Assembly (NCBI RefSeq): GCF_017355855.1
Contig: NZ_JAFEWD010000002.1
Coordinates: forward strand, 620,001 to 684,000
Reading direction: 5' to 3'
DNA length: 64,000 nucleotides
From: Pedobacter sp. SYSU D00535
GTDB lineage: Bacteria > Bacteroidota > Bacteroidia > Sphingobacteriales > Sphingobacteriaceae
The position numbers and the translations under genes are program-made. The notes beneath the pieces were generated by a model that saw nothing but the letters and a program-made list of their open reading frames with translations, was not told the origin of the DNA and did no database searches. Below are positions 38,510 through 64,000 of this stretch, piece by piece. Each line of letters begins with the position of its first letter. Within the stretch, counting starts at the first letter, position 1.

Positions 38510-40411
38510 TTAGATTTTTGAGAGGATAAGTTTAGCATTGTCAGCGTCGGCAATAGCCTGATAAAAGTCTACCAGATCCTGGTAATCTTCAGCCTTGAAA
38601 TATCCCTCATTGAGCTGCATCACCCGTTTATAAGTAATGATTTTTCCGGTAACCGAGAGGTCCGTTGTGTATTTCCCGAAGGGCTTCTCAATGGTCGTCT
38701 TCTCTGGCTGCACGTTAAACAAGTATCCTTCCGGTAGTTCGAAATTGAAAACGTCCTCATCGTAATAGCCTCGGTTGATGTAAACCGGATTGTTCCGGTT
38801 TCTAATTTCCCTGATCGGCCTGATTTTATTTATCGGGTTGAGGTAGAGATGCATTTTTCCGTCTACGATAGCACAGTAGTTGTATGAGTTGAAGTCCAGT
38901 ACCTCTTTTGTAGCGGGCTTCTCCTTCTTTTCCATCTCAAACTGCAAGGATTTTACGTCGAGGTTAGGGAGTGGATACAGCTCAGGCAGCTTCTTCACTT
39001 GCTCCGAATACGCTTCGTTCAGCAGCGAGTGGTGGTTGTCAAACTGGGCGCCCTCAAAGATGGTTGTCATCTTTCCACTAAGTGATCCATTCTCTGCTAT
39101 CTTAAATTCTGCCTTCCGTACCTGCCTGCTTTCTGAGGTGGGATATTTAGTAGTGCGCATGATTTTTCCTCCCTCTGGCGTACAGGCTACTACTAATCGG
39201 TCGTCAGTAAAGTCTCCCAGGAACCCAAAGGGAGAGAACTTGCTCGTACATTCCAGCCATGTCGTGTCGTTTTCAAAAGGAAGGCAGAGGATTACGTGAT
39301 TCCCTTGGTTCATGTCGGCAAAATCAGGGTGGAAGTCGACTTTGAAATTCCCCGCCTGCACAACGGAATAGTAAGACTCAATCCCAACAATGCTAAGCAA
39401 GGCCTTTGTATAGTTGGTTAAGCCTTTGCAATCGCCGTAACCCAGGCGATCCACTTCGGATGCGGGATAAGGTTGAAAACCTCCAATTCCGATCTGGACA
39501 CTGATGTACCGGGTTTTCTGTTGCACTTATTCATAGATCTTCCTGGCTTTTTCTTTTGGGTCTTTAATATCCTTAACCAAATCAAGAATCACAGACTTGG
39601 TGGTTTCCGGTAATTCATCCCGTCCTTTTAGCAGGTTTTCATACATCCACTTTCCGTACTCTGTCCAATTCGTAAAACTACCCTTGGTACCTCTGTAGGC
39701 AAATTTTTCCGGTGCCAAACTAACAGAGGTGAAAACTTTCCGGGGGTGTGGACTGTAGGGCTCCTCTCGCAATGCGGGTAAATTCTTTGCCGCCCACTTG
39801 TACGTTTTGCCTGCTGACGTAGAAGTCTCCTCAACTCTCCCAGGGTAGTTAAACTCTTTATACCGGAGGTTAAACCAGGAAGGACAGATGAAGGTCATGG
39901 AAGAATGCTCTGTAGCAACTCCATGGGCGGTACTTGCCTGCCAAGTAGGGAAGGAGAGGCTCTGCTTGTTTCGATATTCCACCTCATATTCTATAGTGAA
40001 GGGGTAAGCAGATATTACCGGAATGAAGTATTTCATACGATTATCTTCATAGAGCGAAAAATCATTTACCGCGCTTCTATCCTGCATATTCTTTTCGCTA
40101 AACTTTCCGATAGGCAAACCTATCTCATTATAGATAGCGCCTTTTACCGATTTGATACTACTCGTTTTATCGTATTCGAAAACCACATTTGCATGCTCCT
40201 TCGCAGATTCATTTAATATCGTAATCGCAAACTTTCTCTTGTAAATTACTTCATCCAGGTCTTTTACCTCAATGACAGTTTCTGCGTTCCTCACCACGGC
40301 ACCTGCCCTTGACAGCAGGGGTTTCGGAATTGCAGCAACAGGGTATGTCAACTGTGCACTGGCGGATAGAACATTTAAAAAGCAGGCAGTGAATAGAATC
40401 AAATATCTCAT
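38510..40411 (-). pseudogene. DUF3857/transglutaminase-like protein, interrupted by an in-frame stop
   Basis: One gene of 633 codons split by a single TAA at 39527-39529. The first part (294 residues) has a signal peptide (VLSASAQ) and a DUF3857 beta domain and ends ARKIYE. After the TAA the same frame continues VQQKTRYISVQIGIGG into an intact transglutaminase-like core with the nucleophile in GYGDCKGLTNY and a His in GNHVILCLPF, then a C-terminal beta domain. Homologues read KIYEYVQQKTRY (from memory), so the TAA most simply replaces a Tyr codon (TAT/TAC to TAA). The second part has a GTG that could in principle restart, but it would lack a signal peptide. The start overlaps the stop of its paralogue in an ATGA. 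A sequencing error is an alternative. Confidence 0.8.
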
Positions 40412-42372
40412 ATCTTCTTTTTCAGGATAATATCTGTCTGCTGCAGCTGAATAATTTTGTTGTATAGTTCCTTCAGGTAAGGATACTCGCTAGCAGAATA
40501 GGTGGGCTTGTTAAGCTGCATATTATATGAAAGTACGATAACGTTTCCCTCCTGACTGACGTTGGCAAGCACGCGTCCCCCACTGTTCGGCAAACTTAGG
40601 GCTGTTTGTTGCGGTTTGCTAACCACCTCAAACTTTTCCGGAAACCTCACTTGCATATTTACTCTGACTTCCTCCGGTGCGCCAAAATCTATAGGGTAGG
40701 TCCTTTCTGCCAGCTTGAAGGGGTTCTCAGCTATCCTATTCATAAAAAATGGATTTAGATAACTGTGGTCTTTTTCGGTGGCATTTATCTCGATTTCATA
40801 GCTTTCGCCCAAGATATTTTCGAGACTATCCAGATTCCTCACCTCTGATTTCAGAATCTTTATCTTTGGTAGTTTTTCATCCAGGCTCTCTACAAATTCA
40901 TCGACAGAGTTGAAGCTCTTGATCTCCTTCCTTTTCCCGTAAGCGGCATATCCCGCTGAAAAGACGTTCATTCTGCCTTTCATCTTTCCGGATTCATCCA
41001 TCTCCAAGTCCAAAGTGATTGTTCGGGTCTCTTTTTGTGATGCTTTCAGGTCGATCCAGTAGCTGGGTTTATTGAAACTCATTACGCGACCTTTATCATT
41101 GATGCAGCGAAGCGGAAGCAGACCAAAAGGTAGGAGGGGATCCGTACCGTCAAGCAAATAAAAGTTTTCGCCTATGTTCACCTTGCAAATCACATAGTCG
41201 AACTCGGTGAGTACCGGAAAAAGGTTGTTTACTATACCATTACTGCGGGTAGACAAGATCACCGGTTCTGCATTTAGACCACCAGCATTCATCGCAGCAA
41301 CCATAGAAAGATTGATATCTCCGGCATTTCCTGTGCGATTCTCGAAAGCCTTTTTTAATCCGGTATGAGAGTATTTGCCAGAATAATTATCCCACTTATA
41401 CCAGCCTCTGATAAAGTTATAAATAGCTTTTGCTTTTTCCAGTTCAGAACTTAGTCCAGCGGTTAGGGGCGCGACTTTTGACTCAAAGAAGTCCTTCTTT
41501 TTTAATTGAATTCCGAAGGCATCTTCCTTTTTCAGATCCAGGTCTACATCTTTCCACTCTTTCGTCACCGCATGCTTTCCGCCATAATAATCCGTATAAT
41601 CGGATAGCTCGAAATGCATAGCGGATCTAAAATTGCTGGCAGCTGTCATGTACTCTTCTTCATAAAACGCAGGCACATTTTCCATGGCCCAGGTCATAAC
41701 AGAACAATCTGCTTTGAAACCTCCACCTGGATTGAAACACTCTTTCTCTAAAACAGCGGTATTCTTAGATAGCTTTTCTGCTCCGCGCAATGCAATGTTG
41801 TAGTTGTAGATGGCAGGAATCTTGGCGAAGTATTCGGTATAAATTTTAGGAATCTCGCTTTGGAAGTCCCAATTACGAAAATTGTGTCTGAAAGGAGATT
41901 CAATAACATAGGAGTATTCGATGATGCAGCCGTCTTTCAAACTCGGCATGGCGAACTTTACCAAATCGTGATACTTGCCCGCTTTTGATTCTTTAAAGAT
42001 CTGTGATGATTCCAGGTTTGCAGAGCGAAGCAAGTTGTTTTCGTCGGGATAGAAAGTCACCCCTTTAATATCCCTGATCGTCTCAAAAGTGTTGGCATCA
42101 TTTTTCCGCAGGGGAATTTCAATTGTTCCATGTTTGAAGCCTTTACTATTAAATATCTTAATGCGAACGTGGTATTCAAACACAACATTTACATCCGAGT
42201 TGCTGATGTAAGCGGTTCCAAATTCCCGTAAAACAACAGCATTGGCACTGGTGTCTTTACTATACTTCGTTAACTCGTATTCAGTGCTTGTAGGTTTACC
42301 GAAAGGAAAGTTTTGGGCGGAGGCAAATGAAGCGAGAAATGCTACTGCCGCAGTTAAAATTAGCTGTTTCAT
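40408..42372 (-). CDS. DUF3857/transglutaminase-like periplasmic protein
   Basis: A 654-residue protein starting at MKQLILTAAVA with a signal peptide cleaved near ASAQ (about 19). An N-terminal DUF3857 domain (about 30-260) precedes a transglutaminase-like core (about 300-400) and a C-terminal beta domain. In the core, the position where a catalytic Cys is expected reads RTGNAGDINLSM, that is, Ala, so peptidase or transglutaminase activity is unlikely. Its stop overlaps the start of the broken paralogue in an ATGA, so the pair is a translationally coupled operon. The function of this Bacteroidota family is unknown. Confidence 0.82.
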   Translation of the reverse strand: MKQLILTAAVAFLASFASAQNFPFGKPTSTEYELTKYSKDTSANAVVLREFGTAYISNSDVNVVFEYHVRIKIFNSKGFKHGTIEIPLRKNDANTFETIRDIKGVTFYPDENNLLRSANLESSQIFKESKAGKYHDLVKFAMPSLKDGCIIEYSYVIESPFRHNFRNWDFQSEIPKIYTEYFAKIPAIYNYNIALRGAEKLSKNTAVLEKECFNPGGGFKADCSVMTWAMENVPAFYEEEYMTAASNFRSAMHFELSDYTDYYGGKHAVTKEWKDVDLDLKKEDAFGIQLKKKDFFESKVAPLTAGLSSELEKAKAIYNFIRGWYKWDNYSGKYSHTGLKKAFENRTGNAGDINLSMVAAMNAGGLNAEPVILSTRSNGIVNNLFPVLTEFDYVICKVNIGENFYLLDGTDPLLPFGLLPLRCINDKGRVMSFNKPSYWIDLKASQKETRTITLDLEMDESGKMKGRMNVFSAGYAAYGKRKEIKSFNSVDEFVESLDEKLPKIKILKSEVRNLDSLENILGESYEIEINATEKDHSYLNPFFMNRIAENPFKLAERTYPIDFGAPEEVRVNMQVRFPEKFEVVSKPQQTALSLPNSGGRVLANVSQEGNVIVLSYNMQLNKPTYSASEYPYLKELYNKIIQLQQTDIILKKKI

Positions 42373-52574: not shown

Positions 52575-54032
52575 CTAATCTTCCAGTTTCTTTTGAGGCT
52601 CATAGTAAGCTCCTTTGTATTGGGGATTATGCAGCATATGATTGAGGTTCATGATTTTGTAATCGATATTTTCGATACACCGGTTCAATTCACGGATCAA
52701 CTCTTTGTCATCGATCAGGTTTTCCTGCTCCAGCAGCATCAATCCTTTCATGGTAGCAACAGGGCTTCGGATCTCGTGGGAGAGATGAGAGGAGTATTCG
52801 GATAGTTTTATGTTTTTTAACTGTAGATCCTGCGTGCGTTCCTCAATAATACTCTCCAGGTTTTGATTTACCTTATTGAGGCTTTCTTTTTGAAGTGAGA
52901 TTTCCTCGTTCAGACGTTTCAGCTGCTGATTGGTTTTTGCTTTCTTTTTGACATTGATCATTAGCAAGATGATGATGACGACAGAAAGGGCCAGTACGGC
53001 CAGGGAGTACCAGTAAAGCAACTGTCGTTTTTCCTGACGTTCGAGCTGGAGTTCTTGTTCTTTTTGTTTTTGTACCTGCCTTTGTTGCACCTGGAGAAGG
53101 TTGATTTTTTCTGCTTCCAGCTTAACATTATTTGAACTGTCTTTTTGATATAGTTCTCGAAGATGAACGATCGCCTTTGAATAATTTTTTCGTTTATTTT
53201 CGAGATAGTACAGCTCCTTAAGGAAGTGGAGTTTCAGCTGTTCATTCTTAACCAATTCAGCATAGGTTAGTCCTTCCTCTATCGCAACCTCCGCTTGCTT
53301 AAAGTTGCTCTGGTCGACATAAAGATCGGCCAGTGCCAGATTGATCTTACCGACCAACTTGTTTAAGTCGTTTTCTTTAGCTCTCTTATTAGCCTCCACG
53401 AGGTATAGCTTTGCCTTTTCCAACTGATGAAGTTCATGATAGACTACACCAAGGTTCTGAAGGGCTTGGGTTATACCAATAGGGTCGTTTATTTTTCTAA
53501 ATAGGTGCAGGCTCTTATCAAGGAATGCTTTAGCTTTGGTATAGTGACTGTTTTGTACATGTATTAAACCGATGTTTAAATAGCAGCCTGCCTCTAAGTC
53601 GTGTATCTTTAGTTTTTGTGCTAACTTGAAGGCCCGGGTATAGTATGTCAAGCTGAGATGAAAATCGACCGTTCTATACAAATTCCCAATATTATTCAGA
53701 ACCTTAGCCTCCCCTATGAAATTTTTTTCGGATTGAAAATATTTAAGCGCAATAAGGTACCTGGCAATAGCAGTGTCGGTTCTTTCGAGGTAGGAGTTGC
53801 CTATTCCGATGATTCGGTTGGCCTCTGCGATTCCATTTTTGAAGCGAATTTTTTGTGCGATTTTAAGAGCCCTTTTACCTTCTGCAATGGACTGTTCCGG
53901 ACTGGTAAATCGCATTTCATAGGCAAGTTTGTTTAGCCCGATGACTTGCAAACTATCATGTGTCAATTTGTGTTGAGAGTAAGAAAAAAGATTAACTAAT
54001 AAAAAAACGAGTATCAAAGGTGTAGTTTTCAT
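52575..54032 (-). CDS. periplasmic TPR protein with HisKA domain but no ATPase domain
   Basis: A 485-residue protein starting MKTTPLILVFLL with a signal peptide (NLFSYSQ, about 14-20). About six or seven TPR units occupy residues 25-300 in the periplasm, followed by a basic coiled coil, one TM helix (about 338-360), a second coiled coil and a HisKA-like dimerisation helix with the acceptor His in SHLSHEIRSPVATM (about H419). The protein ends about 66 residues later (PQKKLED) with no N, G1 or G2 boxes. It therefore cannot autophosphorylate alone. It diverges from the small lipoprotein array and has a perfect -7 box. Confidence 0.88.
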   Translation of the reverse strand: MKTTPLILVFLLVNLFSYSQHKLTHDSLQVIGLNKLAYEMRFTSPEQSIAEGKRALKIAQKIRFKNGIAEANRIIGIGNSYLERTDTAIARYLIALKYFQSEKNFIGEAKVLNNIGNLYRTVDFHLSLTYYTRAFKLAQKLKIHDLEAGCYLNIGLIHVQNSHYTKAKAFLDKSLHLFRKINDPIGITQALQNLGVVYHELHQLEKAKLYLVEANKRAKENDLNKLVGKINLALADLYVDQSNFKQAEVAIEEGLTYAELVKNEQLKLHFLKELYYLENKRKNYSKAIVHLRELYQKDSSNNVKLEAEKINLLQVQQRQVQKQKEQELQLERQEKRQLLYWYSLAVLALSVVIIILLMINVKKKAKTNQQLKRLNEEISLQKESLNKVNQNLESIIEERTQDLQLKNIKLSEYSSHLSHEIRSPVATMKGLMLLEQENLIDDKELIRELNRCIENIDYKIMNLNHMLHNPQYKGAYYEPQKKLED

Positions 54033-54060
54033 TCGCTGTTTGGAAACCGCACTAAAGTTA

Positions 54061-54068
54061 CAAATATA
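54061..54068 (-). promoter_or_regulatory. -7 box of the TPR-HisKA gene
   Basis: Minus-strand TATATTTG, a perfect TAnnTTTG, 28 bases before the ATG at 54032. Confidence 0.55.
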
Positions 54069-54104
54069 GTTTGTACTTAATTTCTCATTAAATTGTTGCC
54101 CTAA

Positions 54105-54118
54105 ACTGTTATAACAGT
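54105..54118. promoter_or_regulatory. 14-bp perfect palindrome, candidate operator
   Basis: ACTGTTATAACAGT is self-complementary over all 14 bases. It lies in the 100-base divergent gap between the TPR-HisKA gene and the small lipoprotein array, upstream of the TPR -7 box and 14 bases before the first array reading frame. A dimeric regulator could control both sides. Confidence 0.5.
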
Positions 54119-54132
54119 ATTTCCAAAGAATC

Positions 54133-54201
54133 GTGAAAGTACTATTTGCCCTTGCCGTAGTTATAGGCGGAATAGGTGACAAGACCTATGGCTGGGATTA
54201 A
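54133..54201 (+). pseudogene. array copy 0, in-frame deletion derivative
   Basis: A GTG-started 22-residue frame, MKVLFALAVVI joined to GGIGDKTYGWD. Relative to the intact units it lost 26 codons in frame (one near the start, the CTC codon, and the block containing the lipobox Cys and acidic linker) but kept the hydrophobic leader and the complete C-terminal 11 residues. It may be a dead copy or a non-lipidated variant of the same peptide. Confidence 0.6.
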
Positions 54202-54250: not shown

Positions 54251-54397
54251 ATGAAAAAAACACTATTTGCCCTTGCCCTCGTAGTTATTGGATTCTCTTC
54301 CTGCAAGAAAGAAGAAGAAGTAAAACCAGCTGAAAGCCAGCCAGAATCAACCGTAATGACAGGCGGAATAGGTGACAAGACCTATGGCTGGGATTAA
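54251..54397 (+). CDS. small lipoprotein, array copy 1
   Basis: A 48-residue prolipoprotein. The signal is MKKTLFALALVVIGFSSC with the lipidated Cys at residue 18. The mature part is a charged, flexible linker (KKEEEVKPAESQPEST, 19-34) and an invariant C-terminal block VMTGGIGDKTYGWD (35-48). After processing it would be a 31-residue lipopeptide on the periplasmic or outer membrane face. KKEEE right after the Cys resembles an acidic export tag for surface lipoproteins of Bacteroidota. The function is unknown. Protein-level conservation across copies argues that it is expressed and selected. It is identical to copy 2 at DNA level. Confidence 0.88.
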   Translation: MKKTLFALALVVIGFSSCKKEEEVKPAESQPESTVMTGGIGDKTYGWD

Positions 54398-54446
54398 GTA
54401 TTAGGAAGCATAAACAGATTACACCAAACACAAAAAGACTAAGAAC

Positions 54447-54593
54447 ATGAAAAAAACACTATTTGCCCTTGCCCTCGTAGTTATTGGATTCTCTTCCTGC
54501 AAGAAAGAAGAAGAAGTAAAACCAGCTGAAAGCCAGCCAGAATCAACCGTAATGACAGGCGGAATAGGTGACAAGACCTATGGCTGGGATTAA
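54447..54593 (+). CDS. small lipoprotein, array copy 2
   Basis: Same 48-residue product as copy 1 and identical to it in nucleotide sequence. The spacer before it is 49 bases without promoter or terminator. Confidence 0.88.
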   Translation: MKKTLFALALVVIGFSSCKKEEEVKPAESQPESTVMTGGIGDKTYGWD

Positions 54594-54642
54594 GTATTAG
54601 GAAGCATAAACAGATTACACCAAACACAAAAAGACTAAGAAC

Positions 54643-54789
54643 ATGAAAAAAACACTATTTGCCCTGGCCCTCGTAGTTATTGGATTCTCTTCCTGCAAGA
54701 AAGAAGAAGAAGTGAAACCAGCTGAAAGTCAGCCAGAATCAACCGTAATGACAGGCGGAATAGGTGACAAGACCTATGGCTGGGATTAA
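54643..54789 (+). CDS. small lipoprotein, array copy 3
   Basis: Same protein as copy 1. Three synonymous differences: Leu8 CTT to CTG, Val24-region GTA to GTG, Ser AGC to AGT. Confidence 0.88.
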   Translation: MKKTLFALALVVIGFSSCKKEEEVKPAESQPESTVMTGGIGDKTYGWD

Positions 54790-54838
54790 TTATTAAACAA
54801 CACAAACAGATTACACCAAACACAAAAAGACTAAGAAC

Positions 54839-54985
54839 ATGAAAAAAACACTATTTGCCCTTGCCCTCGTAGTTATTGGATTCTCTTCCTGTAAGAAAGA
54901 AGAAGAAGTAAAACCAGCTGAAAGTCAGCCAGAATCAACCGTAATGACAGGCGGAATAGGTGACAAGACCTATGGCTGGGATTAA
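54839..54985 (+). CDS. small lipoprotein, array copy 4
   Basis: Same protein as copy 1. Two synonymous differences: the lipobox Cys codon TGC to TGT and Ser AGC to AGT. Confidence 0.88.
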   Translation: MKKTLFALALVVIGFSSCKKEEEVKPAESQPESTVMTGGIGDKTYGWD

Positions 54986-55034
54986 TTATTAGGAAGCATA
55001 AACAGATTACACCAAACACAAAAAGACTAAGAAC

Positions 55035-55181
55035 ATGAAAAAAACACTATTTGCCCTGGCCCTCGTAGTTATCGGATTCTCTTCCTGCAAGAAAGAAGAA
55101 GAAGTAAAACCAGCTGAAAGCCAGCCAGAATCAACCGTAATGACAGGCGGAATAGGTGACAAGACCTATGGCTGGGATTAA
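55035..55181 (+). CDS. small lipoprotein, array copy 5
   Basis: Same protein as copy 1. Two synonymous differences: Leu8 CTT to CTG and Ile13 ATT to ATC. The spacer after it is 20 bases shorter than the others. Confidence 0.88.
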   Translation: MKKTLFALALVVIGFSSCKKEEEVKPAESQPESTVMTGGIGDKTYGWD

Positions 55182-55210
55182 TTATTAAAGAACACAAACA
55201 GACTAAGAAT

Positions 55211-55357
55211 ATGAAAAAAACACTATTTGCCCTTGCCCTCGTAGTTGTTGGATTCTCATCCTGCAAGAAAGAAGAAGAAGTAAAACCAGCTGAAAGCCAG
55301 CCAGAATCAACCGTAATGACAGGCGGAATAGGTGACAAGACCTATGGCTGGGATTAA
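55211..55357 (+). CDS. small lipoprotein, array copy 6
   Basis: Differs from copy 1 by one conservative change in the signal peptide (Ile13 to Val) and one synonymous Ser codon change (TCT to TCA). The mature peptide is unchanged. Confidence 0.88.
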   Translation: MKKTLFALALVVVGFSSCKKEEEVKPAESQPESTVMTGGIGDKTYGWD

Positions 55358-55406
55358 GTATTAGGAAGCATAAACAGATTACACCAAACACAAAAAGACT
55401 AAGAAC

Positions 55407-55553
55407 ATGAAAAAAACACTATTTGCCCTTGCCCTCGTAGTTATCGGATTCTCTTCCTGCAAGAAAGAAGAAGAAGTAAAACCAGCTGAAAGCCAGCCAG
55501 AATCAACCGTAATGACAGGCGGAATAGGAGACAAGACTTATGGCTGGGATTAA
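55407..55553 (+). CDS. small lipoprotein, array copy 7
   Basis: Same protein as copy 1. Three synonymous differences: Ile13 ATC, Gly GGT to GGA and Thr ACC to ACT, two of them inside the invariant C-terminal block. Confidence 0.88.
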   Translation: MKKTLFALALVVIGFSSCKKEEEVKPAESQPESTVMTGGIGDKTYGWD

Positions 55554-55600
55554 TTATTAGAAACACAACAGATTACGCTAAACATAAACAGACTAAAAAC

Positions 55601-55747
55601 ATGAAAAAAACACTATTTGCCCTTGCCCTCGTAGTTATTGGATTCTCTTCCTGCAAGAAAGAAGAAGAGGTAAAACCAGCTGAAGGTCAGCCAGAATCAA
55701 CCGTAATGACCGGCGGAATAGGTGACAAGACATATGGCTGGGATTAA
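55601..55747 (+). CDS. small lipoprotein, array copy 8
   Basis: The most diverged unit: one linker substitution (Ser29 to Gly, AGC to GGT) and three synonymous changes (Glu GAG, Thr ACC, Thr ACA). The C-terminal block is unchanged. No terminator separates it from the M20 peptidase gene 73 bases downstream. Confidence 0.88.
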   Translation: MKKTLFALALVVIGFSSCKKEEEVKPAEGQPESTVMTGGIGDKTYGWD

Positions 55748-59871: not shown

Positions 59872-61230
59872 ATGACAAACTCCGACACTATCGTAGCGCT
59901 CGCAACGCCTTCGGGACTAGGCGCAATAGGCGTGATCCGGCTTTCCGGGCCGGACGCAATTGCCATCGCCAATAGCGTTTTCAAAGGCAAAAACCTTTCT
60001 CAACAGGCATCCCATACCATTCATTTTGGAACAATCCGCGACGGAGAAGCAATCCTCGACGAGGTACTGGTTTCGCTCTTTATTGCTCCCCACTCTTATA
60101 CCAGGGAGAACGTGGTAGAAATCTCCACCCATGGGTCGCCCTATATCATCGAAAGTATGATCAAGCTGATGATCAGGAAAGGAGCAAGGGCAGCCCAGCC
60201 GGGAGAATTTACGCTGCGGGCGTTTCTCAATGGCGGGATGGATTTGTCGCAGGCAGAAGCTGTTGCCGACCTCATTGCATCCAACTCTCAGGCTTCTCAC
60301 CAGGTAGCACTCCAGCAAATGCGAGGCGGCTTTTCAAACGAACTGAAGGTGCTTCGCGAGCAGCTGATCAATTTTGCTTCTCTTATTGAGTTGGAACTCG
60401 ATTTTTCGGAGGAGGATGTAGAGTTTGCCAACCGCGATCAGTTGAAGCAACTCATCCTGCAGATCACCCGAGTGTTAACGCGGTTAATTCGCTCCTTCGA
60501 ACAGGGCAACGTAATGAAGAACGGAGTACCGGTAGTAATTGCCGGAAAACCGAACGTCGGGAAATCAACACTACTAAATGCGCTGCTGAATGAGGACCGC
60601 GCAATAGTCTCTGACATTGCCGGAACGACCCGGGATACTATCGAAGATGAGATGACGATTGGCGGTATCTTGTTCCGCTTTATAGATACGGCTGGAATCC
60701 GCGAAACGGAGGATTTTATAGAAGCGAAGGGCGTGGAGCGCACGCTCGAAAAAATGAAACAGGCAAAGCTGATCATTTACCTGGTGGATCCGTTGCAGAA
60801 GCTGGAAGAGATCAGGGAACAGATAAGCGAAGTGGAGCAACTCCAGATTCCCCTCGTAGCAGTAGTGAATAAAAGCGATCTGCTGAGTCCGCAGGAACAG
60901 TATGAGTTCGCCCAGTTGAATCCCAACTTCATCTCGGCCAAAAATAAGGAAGGAATAGACGAACTTAAGGACGAAATCCTGCGCAAAGTAAACCTGCACA
61001 ACATCAGCACCGACGATGTGCTGGTAACCAATATCCGACACGTCGAAGCACTCCAGCGAACACTGGATTCCCTCGAACGCGTCCTTCATGGCATCGACAA
61101 TCCGGTAACATCCGATTTTCTCGCTATGGACATCAAACAGGCTCTACATTACCTGGGTGAGATTACGGGCACAGTCACAACAGACGACCTGCTCGATAAT
61201 ATCTTTTCCAAGTTCTGTATCGGCAAATAG
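59872..61230 (+). CDS. mnmE: tRNA modification GTPase MnmE
   Basis: A 452-residue MnmE, which with MnmG makes the cmnm5 group at U34 of certain tRNAs. I start at MTNSDTIVALAT (59872). An N-terminal formyl-THF-binding domain (about 1-118), helical domain and inserted G domain follow, with G1 GKPNVGKS (about 225-232), switch GTTRDT, G3 DTAG and G4 NKSD. The C-terminus is the diagnostic FCIGK with the catalytic Cys. GAACTTTG (one mismatch -7 box) lies upstream. A mobile-element-type integrase module lies just downstream. Confidence 0.96.
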   Translation: MTNSDTIVALATPSGLGAIGVIRLSGPDAIAIANSVFKGKNLSQQASHTIHFGTIRDGEAILDEVLVSLFIAPHSYTRENVVEISTHGSPYIIESMIKLMIRKGARAAQPGEFTLRAFLNGGMDLSQAEAVADLIASNSQASHQVALQQMRGGFSNELKVLREQLINFASLIELELDFSEEDVEFANRDQLKQLILQITRVLTRLIRSFEQGNVMKNGVPVVIAGKPNVGKSTLLNALLNEDRAIVSDIAGTTRDTIEDEMTIGGILFRFIDTAGIRETEDFIEAKGVERTLEKMKQAKLIIYLVDPLQKLEEIREQISEVEQLQIPLVAVVNKSDLLSPQEQYEFAQLNPNFISAKNKEGIDELKDEILRKVNLHNISTDDVLVTNIRHVEALQRTLDSLERVLHGIDNPVTSDFLAMDIKQALHYLGEITGTVTTDDLLDNIFSKFCIGK

Positions 61231-61270
61231 ATAGTATAAACAAGTACCAGTAGAAACGAAAAAATGCAAG

Positions 61271-61306
61271 AAAGCCGCTTAACACTGTGTTAAGCGGCTT
61301 TTTTTA
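61271..61306 (+). terminator. terminator of mnmE
   Basis: An almost uninterrupted palindrome of 15 bp per arm (AAAGCCGCTTAACAC / GTGTTAAGCGGCTTT) continuing into a T run. Confidence 0.93.
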
Positions 61307-61413
61307 TGTTGTTTATTCGTAAATATTTAGTGTTGTTTGGATTGATTTTGTACCCTATTTGTACCTCATTCTAGTTTTGAATGAGAGCAAATTCAATGGG
61401 AGAAATTAGTTCC

Positions 61414-61474
61414 CTTAGCGACACTTAACGACCACTAACGACGACTAACAACCTCTAAAAGGGCACTTAACAAC
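61414..61474 (+). repeat. helically phased CTTAACGAC-type repeats
   Basis: Five units of a CT(T)AACRAC consensus: CTTAGCGAC (61414), CTTAACGAC (61424), CTAACGAC (61435), CTAACAAC (61445) and CTTAACAAC (61466), spaced 10, 11, 10 and 21 bases, that is, on one face of the helix. They lie just upstream of the HTH/integrase genes and look like arm-type recombinase sites or operator sites. Confidence 0.6.
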
Positions 61475-61527
61475 AGCTGATTACTGCAATGTAGTTTTTA
61501 TAAGTTAAACGATAAATAAGTGCAAAA

Positions 61528-62118
61528 ATGAGCTCAAACATTCAAGTAAAAAGGATTTGTCAGCACTGTGGAGTGGAATTCCTTGCTAAAACTACTGTTA
61601 CGCAGTATTGCTCTGACCGCTGTGGAAAGAGGGCGTATAAACAAAGGATAAGGGATTCAAAAATTCAGAAGAGTGATCAGGAAACAGAAGAAAAAAAGCT
61701 CGTCCCCCTTTTAGAATTGAAAGACAAAGATGTCCTTACGGTTAAGCAAGTTGCAACATTATTGAAATGCTCAAGACGAGCAGTGTCAAAGATGATTGAC
61801 TCTGGAAGATTGGCAGCAATGAAGTTCAGCGAAAGAAATACTAGGGTTAGACGCTCTGATGTAGAGGATCTCTTTCAATGTCAAATGCCAGAGGTTGTTT
61901 TCAGGGTTGATCCCCCTCAAATCAAATTTAAAGTTGAAGATTGCTACACGATTGCGGAAGCTGAAAACCTATTGGGTATGTCTTCGGCTGCAGTATATCA
62001 TTATATCAAAAGAAACAAGATCCCAAAGTTTCAAGAAGGTCGGTATGTGTACGTGCCGAAAAAGATGATCGATTCATTAGCAATTAAAAAATCTCCTCTT
62101 TCAACCTCAAAGTCATGA
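61528..62118 (+). CDS. zinc-ribbon/double-HTH excisionase-like protein
   Basis: A 196-residue DNA-binding protein. An N-terminal zinc-knuckle [18 protein letters not shown] plus DRC (about 11-32) is followed by two MerR/excisionase-type helix-turn-helix units: [20 protein letters not shown] (about 70-89) and [20 protein letters not shown] (about 141-160). Such HTH_17 proteins sit beside integrases of Bacteroidota mobile elements and can act as excision or regulatory factors. Its stop overlaps the integrase start in an ATGA, so the two are coupled. Its DNA looks more AT-rich than neighbouring mnmE. Confidence 0.82.
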
Positions 62119-63230
62119 AGGTAACTTTAAGAAAACGCGCGATTTCTAACGGACGTAAAGCCTTATATTTAGATTATTATCCTGCCTTTGTTCATCCTCA
62201 TACTGGAAAGTTATCCAGGAGGGAACATTTAAAAATATACATTTATGATAAACCCAAGGATGCTCTTGAAAAGAAGCATAATAAAGAAACCTTAGCTTTA
62301 GCTGAAAATTTACGAGCAAAAAGACAGCTGGAAATTCAGAATAAGCAATTTGATTTTATTTCAGACAGCAAGAGAAATGAAAGTTTCCTGGAATATTTTA
62401 GAATGAAAGCTGAAAAGAGACGAGGCCCGAATTACTATAACTGGGATATGTCGGTTCGGTATCTTGAAGCTTTTGCAGGAAGTGGCGTTCGCTTCTTGGA
62501 TTTGAATGAAGTATTTTGTGAAGAATACAAAGATTATATCTTGTCATCGCCTGCGATAGGCAACAGAAACAAGAAAATATCCTTCAATACCGCTGCAAGC
62601 TACTACGCAAAATTTCGGAACGTAATTAAGTCAGCATTTAAAGCCAGGCTATTAGTCACAAATCTTTACGAGTTAGTTTCTGGTATCGCAGAGAAGGATA
62701 CACATAGGGAGTTTCTTACAATTTCAGAATTTCAGAAACTAGCTTCAACAGAATGTCAAGATCAGTCAGTGAAAGCGGCAGCACTATTTTCAGGATTGAC
62801 TGGTTTGAGATTTTCTGATATTTATGCATTAAGATGGTCACAAGTGCGGGGCTCGCAAGGAGATTACCATTTGCAGTTTAGTCAGATAAAAACTTCTGGA
62901 GCTCAAAATCTTCCTATATCAGACCAGGCATACAGTTTATTAGGGGAACGCCTTGGCCCCGATCAAAAGGTATTTCAAAAGTTAAGCTATCATAAGATGA
63001 GAACTGTTTTGCAAAGATGGCTGGACGCAGCTCAAATCTCAAAGAAGATTACCTTTCATTGCTTACGTCATACATACGCAACCTTACAACTAGCATCTGG
63101 AACAGATATTTATACTGTTTCCAAGATGTTGGGACATAAGAATGTGAAGACTACGCAGATATATACTAAGGTAATTGATGATAAGAAGAAGGAAGCTGCA
63201 AATAGGATTAAACTGGATTTGACGAATTGA
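62115..63230 (+). CDS. tyrosine recombinase/phage-type integrase
   Basis: A 371-residue integrase with an N-terminal SAM-like core-binding domain (about 95-200) and a catalytic domain with a full set of residues: Arg in TGLRFSD (R232), HxxR in [10 protein letters not shown] (H315, R318), His in LGHKN (H341) and the nucleophile in TQIYTK (Y350). The length and N-terminal arm ([14 protein letters not shown], an Arm-DNA-binding motif) match Bacteroidota transposon and conjugative-element integrases. It is the second gene of the coupled pair. No other mobile-element genes follow in the window. Confidence 0.92.
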
Positions 63231-63233
63231 AAG

Positions 63234-63251
63234 ATGCTGTTGTTGCAGCAT
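63234..63251 (+). terminator. small hairpin after the integrase gene
   Basis: ATGCTG-TTGTTG-CAGCAT, a 6-bp stem 4 bases after the stop codon, without a strong T run; a weak terminator at best. Confidence 0.4.
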
Positions 63252-63321
63252 TATCTCGAACATCATGCTCTAATTTTTAGCTAAATAGCTTAAAACTGCC
63301 AGCTCAAATTTGTTTTAACTG

Positions 63322-63394
63322 TAAGCTCCTCCATTCACTAGTATCGCTCTGGCTTTTTAAGAAAGCGTCAGCAATCAGTATTTTGAGGAGCTTA
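63322..63394. repeat. 10-bp inverted repeat flanking a 53-base loop
   Basis: TAAGCTCCTC (63322-63331) and GAGGAGCTTA (63385-63394) are perfect inverted repeats in the non-coding region between the integrase gene and the GH43-like gene. A shorter hairpin (GCTTTTTAAGAAAGC) lies inside. It may be a mobile-element end or a regulatory structure. Confidence 0.45.
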
Positions 63395-63488
63395 TTTACA
63401 TGCTTTAAAAGCTTATTGCAAACCGGTATTCAATACATATTTCTAAACAACAGTGAAGAGAGTAAGGAAGGCAACGTTGTTAACCCTT

Positions 63489-64000
63489 TTATTTCAATTT
63501 TTTTGCGCCTTTTTTCAATACAAAATCAGGTTGTTTGGAAGCTACCTTTATTAAGCCCTGCTTATCAAATTCTACTTTTACAATCCCCGGTTTTTCTCTC
63601 CAGGGCGCCTGGTTATCATTTCCAAAGAAACAGCTATACCAGTTTCCCGACTTATCTTTGAAATAGTTAGTACCGCCGCCGCAAGGAACTGCCTCATGCC
63701 TGTTCTGATAAGGACCATAGATATTATCGGATACCGCCGCCATACTGCTATATCTTCCCTGGTAGGAATCCGCTGCGGTTAAGTAATATTTCCCGTCCTT
63801 TTTAAATAGGAAAGCGCCTTCATGTCCTATATCCTGACAATCGCGACGAAGTGAACAATTAGATGCATGGTTTTTAGGGTTCAGGTCTGGATTAATCAGC
63901 ACGGGCTTTTTCGGCTCTTCTGCCAAGCCACTCATATCATCCTTCATGCGTGCAATCCAACCGCCGCCCCAAACAAGGTAAACTACACCGTCTGTATCTT
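63489..64000 (-). CDS. GH43-like glycoside hydrolase (partial, 5' end outside window)
   Basis: The C-terminal about 170 residues of a glycosidase; the frame stays open to the window edge, where it reads DTDGVVYLVWGGGWIARMK, so the methionine at 63947 is internal. DTDGxxYLVWGGG, EGAFLFKKDGKYYLTAAD (catalytic Glu of the blade motif) and NWYSCFFGND match the five-bladed propeller of family 43 and related enzymes that attack arabinans, xylans or galactans. The substrate cannot be inferred from this part. It could be the host gene next to which the mobile module inserted. Confidence 0.8.
   Translation of the reverse strand, partial: DTDGVVYLVWGGGWIARMKDDMSGLAEEPKKPVLINPDLNPKNHASNCSLRRDCQDIGHEGAFLFKKDGKYYLTAADSYQGRYSSMAAVSDNIYGPYQNRHEAVPCGGGTNYFKDKSGNWYSCFFGNDNQAPWREKPGIVKVEFDKQGLIKVASKQPDFVLKKGAKKLK

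Follow-up and report, generated by a model that had tools for sequence, protein, structure and literature searches.

A single in-frame stop codon in the second gene of a DUF3857/transglutaminase-like pair of Pedobacter sp. SYSU D00535: a probable recent nonsense mutation

Introduction

Within a stretch of 64,000 nucleotides from the genome of Pedobacter sp. SYSU D00535 (hereafter the window), a gene for a DUF3857/transglutaminase-like protein is interrupted by one in-frame TAA codon. Does this codon mark a gene that has just been lost, or is it an error of the sequence, the border between two separately made parts of a working protein, or a stop that is decoded as an amino acid? We consider it probable that the gene, the second of two that form a conserved unit, has been inactivated by a nonsense mutation of a single base that arose very recently. 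As a mutation such an event is ordinary, and the TAA is real in the sequence.

The interrupted reading frame

The interrupted gene occupies positions 38510 to 40411 on the minus strand. From its ATG at 40411, the frame runs through 294 codons, reaches the TAA at 39529-39527 (39527..39529, codon 295), continues for 338 codons and closes with a final TAA that ends at 38510; it thus comprises 633 codons when the internal TAA is counted as one. Read on the minus strand, the codons at the break are GCC AGG AAG ATC TAT GAA TAA GTG CAA CAG, and the peptide around it is A R K I Y E, stop, V Q Q K T R Y I S V Q. There is no further internal stop, and the frame can be aligned from end to end, as one frame, with intact orthologues (60% identity to those of the relatives G001 and G012). 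An earlier reading made from the sequence only had claimed that a single TAA splits the gene and leaves both halves in one frame, and the alignment bears this out on both points.

The upstream fragment of 294 amino acids (39527..40411, minus strand) contains the DUF3857 domain together with the initial helices of the core domain. Its first 20 residues resemble a signal peptide, as judged by eye rather than with a predictor, and the protein is for this reason probably exported. The downstream fragment of 338 amino acids (38510..39526, minus strand) contains the remainder of the core, including Cys328 and His372, and then a DUF3858-like region; its frame is opened by a GTG, the codon located directly 3' of the TAA, and no signal peptide was seen in it by eye. 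A distant paralogue, 30% identical and intact, is encoded elsewhere in the same genome.

Domain architecture and modelled fold

DUF3857 (PF12969) is recognized in the upstream fragment with 79.5 bits against a curated cut-off of 24.6 (E 3.9e-22). In the read-through frame, the transglutaminase core (PF01841, Transglut_core) falls below its cut-off of 23 with 17.5 bits; the match covers residues 278-350 and hence spans the stop. DUF3858 reaches 24 bits against a cut-off of 27 in the downstream fragment (E 4.6e-5) and 22.4 bits against the same cut-off in the read-through frame. In the literature searched, one paper uses the word DUF3857, and DUF3858 occurs in none of the ten papers listed. Cys328 and His372, which from knowledge of the superfamily we take to be the catalytic residues, are invariant in an alignment of 53 sequences, and both are located downstream of the stop.

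When the read-through sequence is modelled with AlphaFold2 (mean pLDDT 91.4, pTM 0.86), the stop falls inside a helix of the core, formed by residues 285-299, and not in a linker; the core domain itself is therefore cut. The best solved match to this model is the BDI_1141 protein from Parabacteroides distasonis (PDB accession code 3kd4), found by Foldseek with an E value of 1.1e-31 and a TM score of 0.78 on the target. This putative protease carries DUF3857 and DUF3858 and is presumably the structure behind both DUF families. The two proteins have an overall fold in common over most of the chain, and phmmer recovers 3kd4 with an E value of 0.00045 and its best stretch in the C-terminal domain. 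They are 14% identical over the structural alignment, and the copy in the window is broken by the stop, so that it is its read-through model that has been compared.

Conservation among relatives

At an E value threshold of 1e-90, a search of 399 genomes of the family, the Pedobacter genome itself included, gave matches in 313 and none in the other 86. Among the 150 matches listed, which come from 149 of these genomes, a single one holds an internal stop, and this is the window's own copy; the other 149 are free of internal stops. A conserved split gene, the finding that the sequence-only reading had itself named as counter-evidence, was not found among these 150 matches (399 family genomes searched, 313 matched).

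The residue aligned with the stop is tyrosine in 43 of 52 other copies, phenylalanine in eight and histidine in one; tyrosine, the residue that had been expected at this position from the sequence, is thus indeed the commonest. This set leaves out three duplicate records and a frameshifted copy from G016; with these four included, all 56 copies can be aligned at the position (Tyr 46, Phe 8, His 2), and in none of these 56 relatives is the aligned codon a stop. The codon that corresponds to the GTG after the stop specifies a hydrophobic residue inside the protein and is ATG in 42 of the 56 relatives; no stop precedes it in any of the 56.

When a conserved site is defined by agreement among 90% or more of the other sequences, the window's copy departs from the consensus at two of 28 such sites before the stop and at none of 59 after it. 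The 52 other copies show between 0 and 8 departures before the position of the stop and between 0 and 16 after it, and the window's copy falls within both ranges. This is in keeping with the earlier remark that the halves show no other damage. Within the genus, three species were compared, and they are at most 60% identical in the protein under study.

Two broken copies of other origin are known from the 59 relatives; both score more weakly and stand outside the 150 matches listed. In G032 (L023, G032:C46), the gene is broken by a TAG located 11 codons downstream of the position of the window's stop; the partner gene there is likewise interrupted by a stop, and the assembly consists of 230 contigs and is 92% complete. 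In G016 (L030, G016:C84), a frameshift is present near residue 251. Since these two copies carry lesions of their own, occasional loss of the gene would seem not to be unusual, or some of the broken copies are assembly errors as well.

The intact partner and the two-gene unit

Directly upstream lies the partner gene, at 40408..42372 on the minus strand, which begins with an ATG at 42372 and encodes 654 amino acids with DUF3857, Transglut_core and a DUF3858-like region (the query of this domain search was one codon too long at its start). The TGA that closes it and the ATG of the interrupted gene overlap in the sequence ATGA, and this upstream paralogue is as intact as the sequence-only reading had taken it to be. 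According to mechanical ORF starts, the overlap between the two open reading frames is one base in G002 and four bases in both G001 and G012.

The pair was searched for in 59 relatives and in the Pedobacter genome itself, at thresholds of 1e-90 and 1e-60. Both genes are present in 23 of the 36 relatives that belong to the family (G001-G036), the broken G016 and G032 copies being counted among them, and a comparison of coordinates places the partner directly upstream in all 23. Both are missing in the remaining 13 at these thresholds, and one gene alone occurs in none of the 36. Nine of the 13 relatives without the pair have genomes of at most 2.4 Mb, and two of these nine are less than 80% complete; such absences from small genomes say little about dispensability in a genome of 4.9 Mb. 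Outside the family, G037 carries both kinds, on separate contigs, and G057 matches the second gene without matching the first.

It is this setting, with the genes either paired or missing together in the 36 family relatives at the thresholds applied, that makes the locus useful. The unit encodes little-studied, probably exported transglutaminase-like proteins, and a strain in which the second member alone is lost would amount to a natural test of whether the two proteins need each other.

A recent nonsense mutation

Several lines of evidence argue for a recent nonsense mutation: the stop is confined to the window's own copy among the 150 matches listed, a conserved aromatic residue is expected in its place, and the conserved sites are nearly unviolated on both sides of it. 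The same reading is supported by the location of the stop, which falls inside helix 285-299 of the core and not in a linker, by the part of the family that does without the gene (the 86 genomes with no match and the 13 relatives without either gene), and by the independently broken copies of G016 and G032. Translation of the interrupted gene would end after 294 residues, and the product would keep the signal peptide and DUF3857 and be devoid of the presumed catalytic Cys and His. On the modelled structure, this truncated protein should be inactive, because the stop precedes the invariant Cys328 and His372 and falls within a core helix.

A simple neutral count, based on 0 departures at 59 sites, limits the neutral divergence after a possible loss of constraint to at most about 0.02 substitutions per site (95%). 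The absence of departures would fit a very young lesion, and it would fit an error of the sequence or a decoded stop equally well. Young bacterial pseudogenes described by Kuo and Ochman in 2010 (PMC2916853) resemble the present case in that one disabling change is found in an otherwise conserved gene in one lineage; for the Pedobacter gene, in comparison, we infer the inactivation.

Two scans place the stop in the context of the genome. A codon-usage scan for in-frame breaks over 295,578 bases in 13 stretches listed 17 stops, the one under study included; the count applies to these stretches, which contain the window and are partly redundant owing to a contig overlap, and is not a genome-wide rate. 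The other 16, judged by eye, seem to be either antisense frames or the usual junctions between genes. With a stricter threshold, no stops were listed in 135,578 bases, and the scan missed the TAA of the interrupted gene as well. When 23 open reading frames of relatives that match the window were considered, the only sense-strand match that extends over a stop was the interrupted gene, in three of three relatives; one antisense frame among the 23 also gave a stop.

Alternative explanations

The sequence-only reading had named three possibilities, namely a nonsense mutation that happened very recently, a sequencing error and a read-through site. The first is now favoured, the evidence speaks against the last, and an error, by which the organism would have a sense codon and an intact gene, is unlikely but deserves to be taken seriously. 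An otherwise intact gene is predicted by an error as well as by a fresh mutation, and the assembly has flaws: the contigs C12 and C11 overlap redundantly over some 115 kb, where a one-base gap is present, another 6,148 bases that occur twice differ by two substitutions (C12:675082-796576 against C11:1-121567 for the two stretches together), and C11 contains a probable misjoin. Against this stands the apparent rarity of substitutions in the consensus, with none in the 115,442 aligned bases that the two contigs have in common, although these copies were perhaps not called independently and may derive from the same reads. Moreover, the two substitutions in the 6,148-base duplicate are confined to its first 264 bases, where a repeat array adjoins the probable misjoin. 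The duplicate comparison therefore makes it unlikely that substitution errors are frequent outside the repeat array and the misjoin. The site of the TAA (C12:659527-659529) has no second copy in the assembly; the nearest duplicated stretch (C12:675082) is some 16.5 kb away at most. The base is probably real in the organism.

Far less plausible is a gene split into two halves that are made separately, by a stop and a restart at the adjacent GTG, and that work together. The GTG does open a frame of 338 amino acids directly after the stop, and a restart there may occur. Nevertheless, a split at this place is absent from the other 149 of the 150 matches listed, and the cut falls inside a core helix. 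The codon after the stop corresponds, as described above, to an internal hydrophobic position that is often ATG in relatives with no stop before it. Judged by eye, the first half seems to have a signal peptide and the second has none; function would for this reason probably not be restored by a restarted fragment.

We likewise give very little credence to a functional read-through, in which a residue would be inserted at the TAA and the full-length protein made, even though both halves look fully constrained. Among the 30 stop-to-stop stretches of at least 300 codons in the window, 18 end with TAA (the TAA under study included), which makes it the commonest terminator there, and its general suppression would therefore be costly; moreover, a TAA that is followed by G is an efficient terminator. 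No TTA, CTA or TCA suppressor anticodon, and hence none reading UAA, UAG or UGA, was called among the 49 tRNA matches in the Pedobacter genome, an incomplete set for which 150 of 314 first-look candidates were scored and from which tRNA-Ile(gat) and tRNA-Ala(tgc) are missing. In PMC7918605, in-frame stops that are common to several genomes and surrounded by sequence with a dN/dS below 1 are proposed as read-through sites, the presence of the stop in at least two genomes being required. The Pedobacter case is alike in that an in-frame stop is located in a constrained gene, and differs in that it is found in a single genome. The stop is not kept at the same place in relatives, as the other 149 of the 150 matches listed are stop-free and the TAG of G032 lies 11 codons further on.

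Least credible of all is the idea that the stop tunes a ratio between a secreted, DUF3857-only binding form made on purpose and a catalytic full-length form obtained through leaky decoding of the TAA.

Other features of the window and the assembly

A suppressor tRNA that would recode the stop was looked for and not recognized among the 49 tRNA matches of the incomplete set; one malformed tRNA, for which ARAGORN called the anticodon 'gtaa', has no assignable anticodon. This tRNA-like gene (C12:193022-193114; L124 101-193) scores well above the Rfam cut-off and contains 29 bases between the D and T arms where the family consensus has 9 (cmscan), about 20 extra. Its last 24 bases equal positions 443615-443638 of contig C13, which are part of a tRNA-Leu(tag) gene. 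A full-length counterpart was found in none of the 59 relatives and only in the Pedobacter genome itself (60 genomes searched).

The 3' end of mnmE contains what looks like an integrative element of about 77 kb. It occupies positions 61213-64000 of the window, continues in C12 to 758164, and has the 17-bp direct repeat TTCTGTATCGGCAAATA at its boundaries; mnmE is followed by an HTH_17 gene at this site. The same element is carried by C11, together with a separate apparent empty site at C11:83140-83156, and the assembly may for this reason record both the integrated and the excised form. The probable misjoin in C11 (C11:77013) is a junction between the right end of the element and the middle of an array of lipoprotein genes.

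This array is present in the window at 54251-55747 on the plus strand and consists of eight tandem copies, spaced by 176-196 bp, of a gene for a lipoprotein-like protein of 48 amino acids (MKKTLFALALVVIGFSSCKKEEEVKPAESQPESTVMTGGIGDKTYGWD); the copies differ in their DNA and are nearly identical in the encoded protein. A gene for a TPR-repeat protein (52575-54182, minus strand) adjoins the array. Weak relatives of the lipoprotein-like gene occur in G012, G022, G026, G034 and G003 (E values between 1.6e-6 and 0.009), several of them likewise in short arrays.
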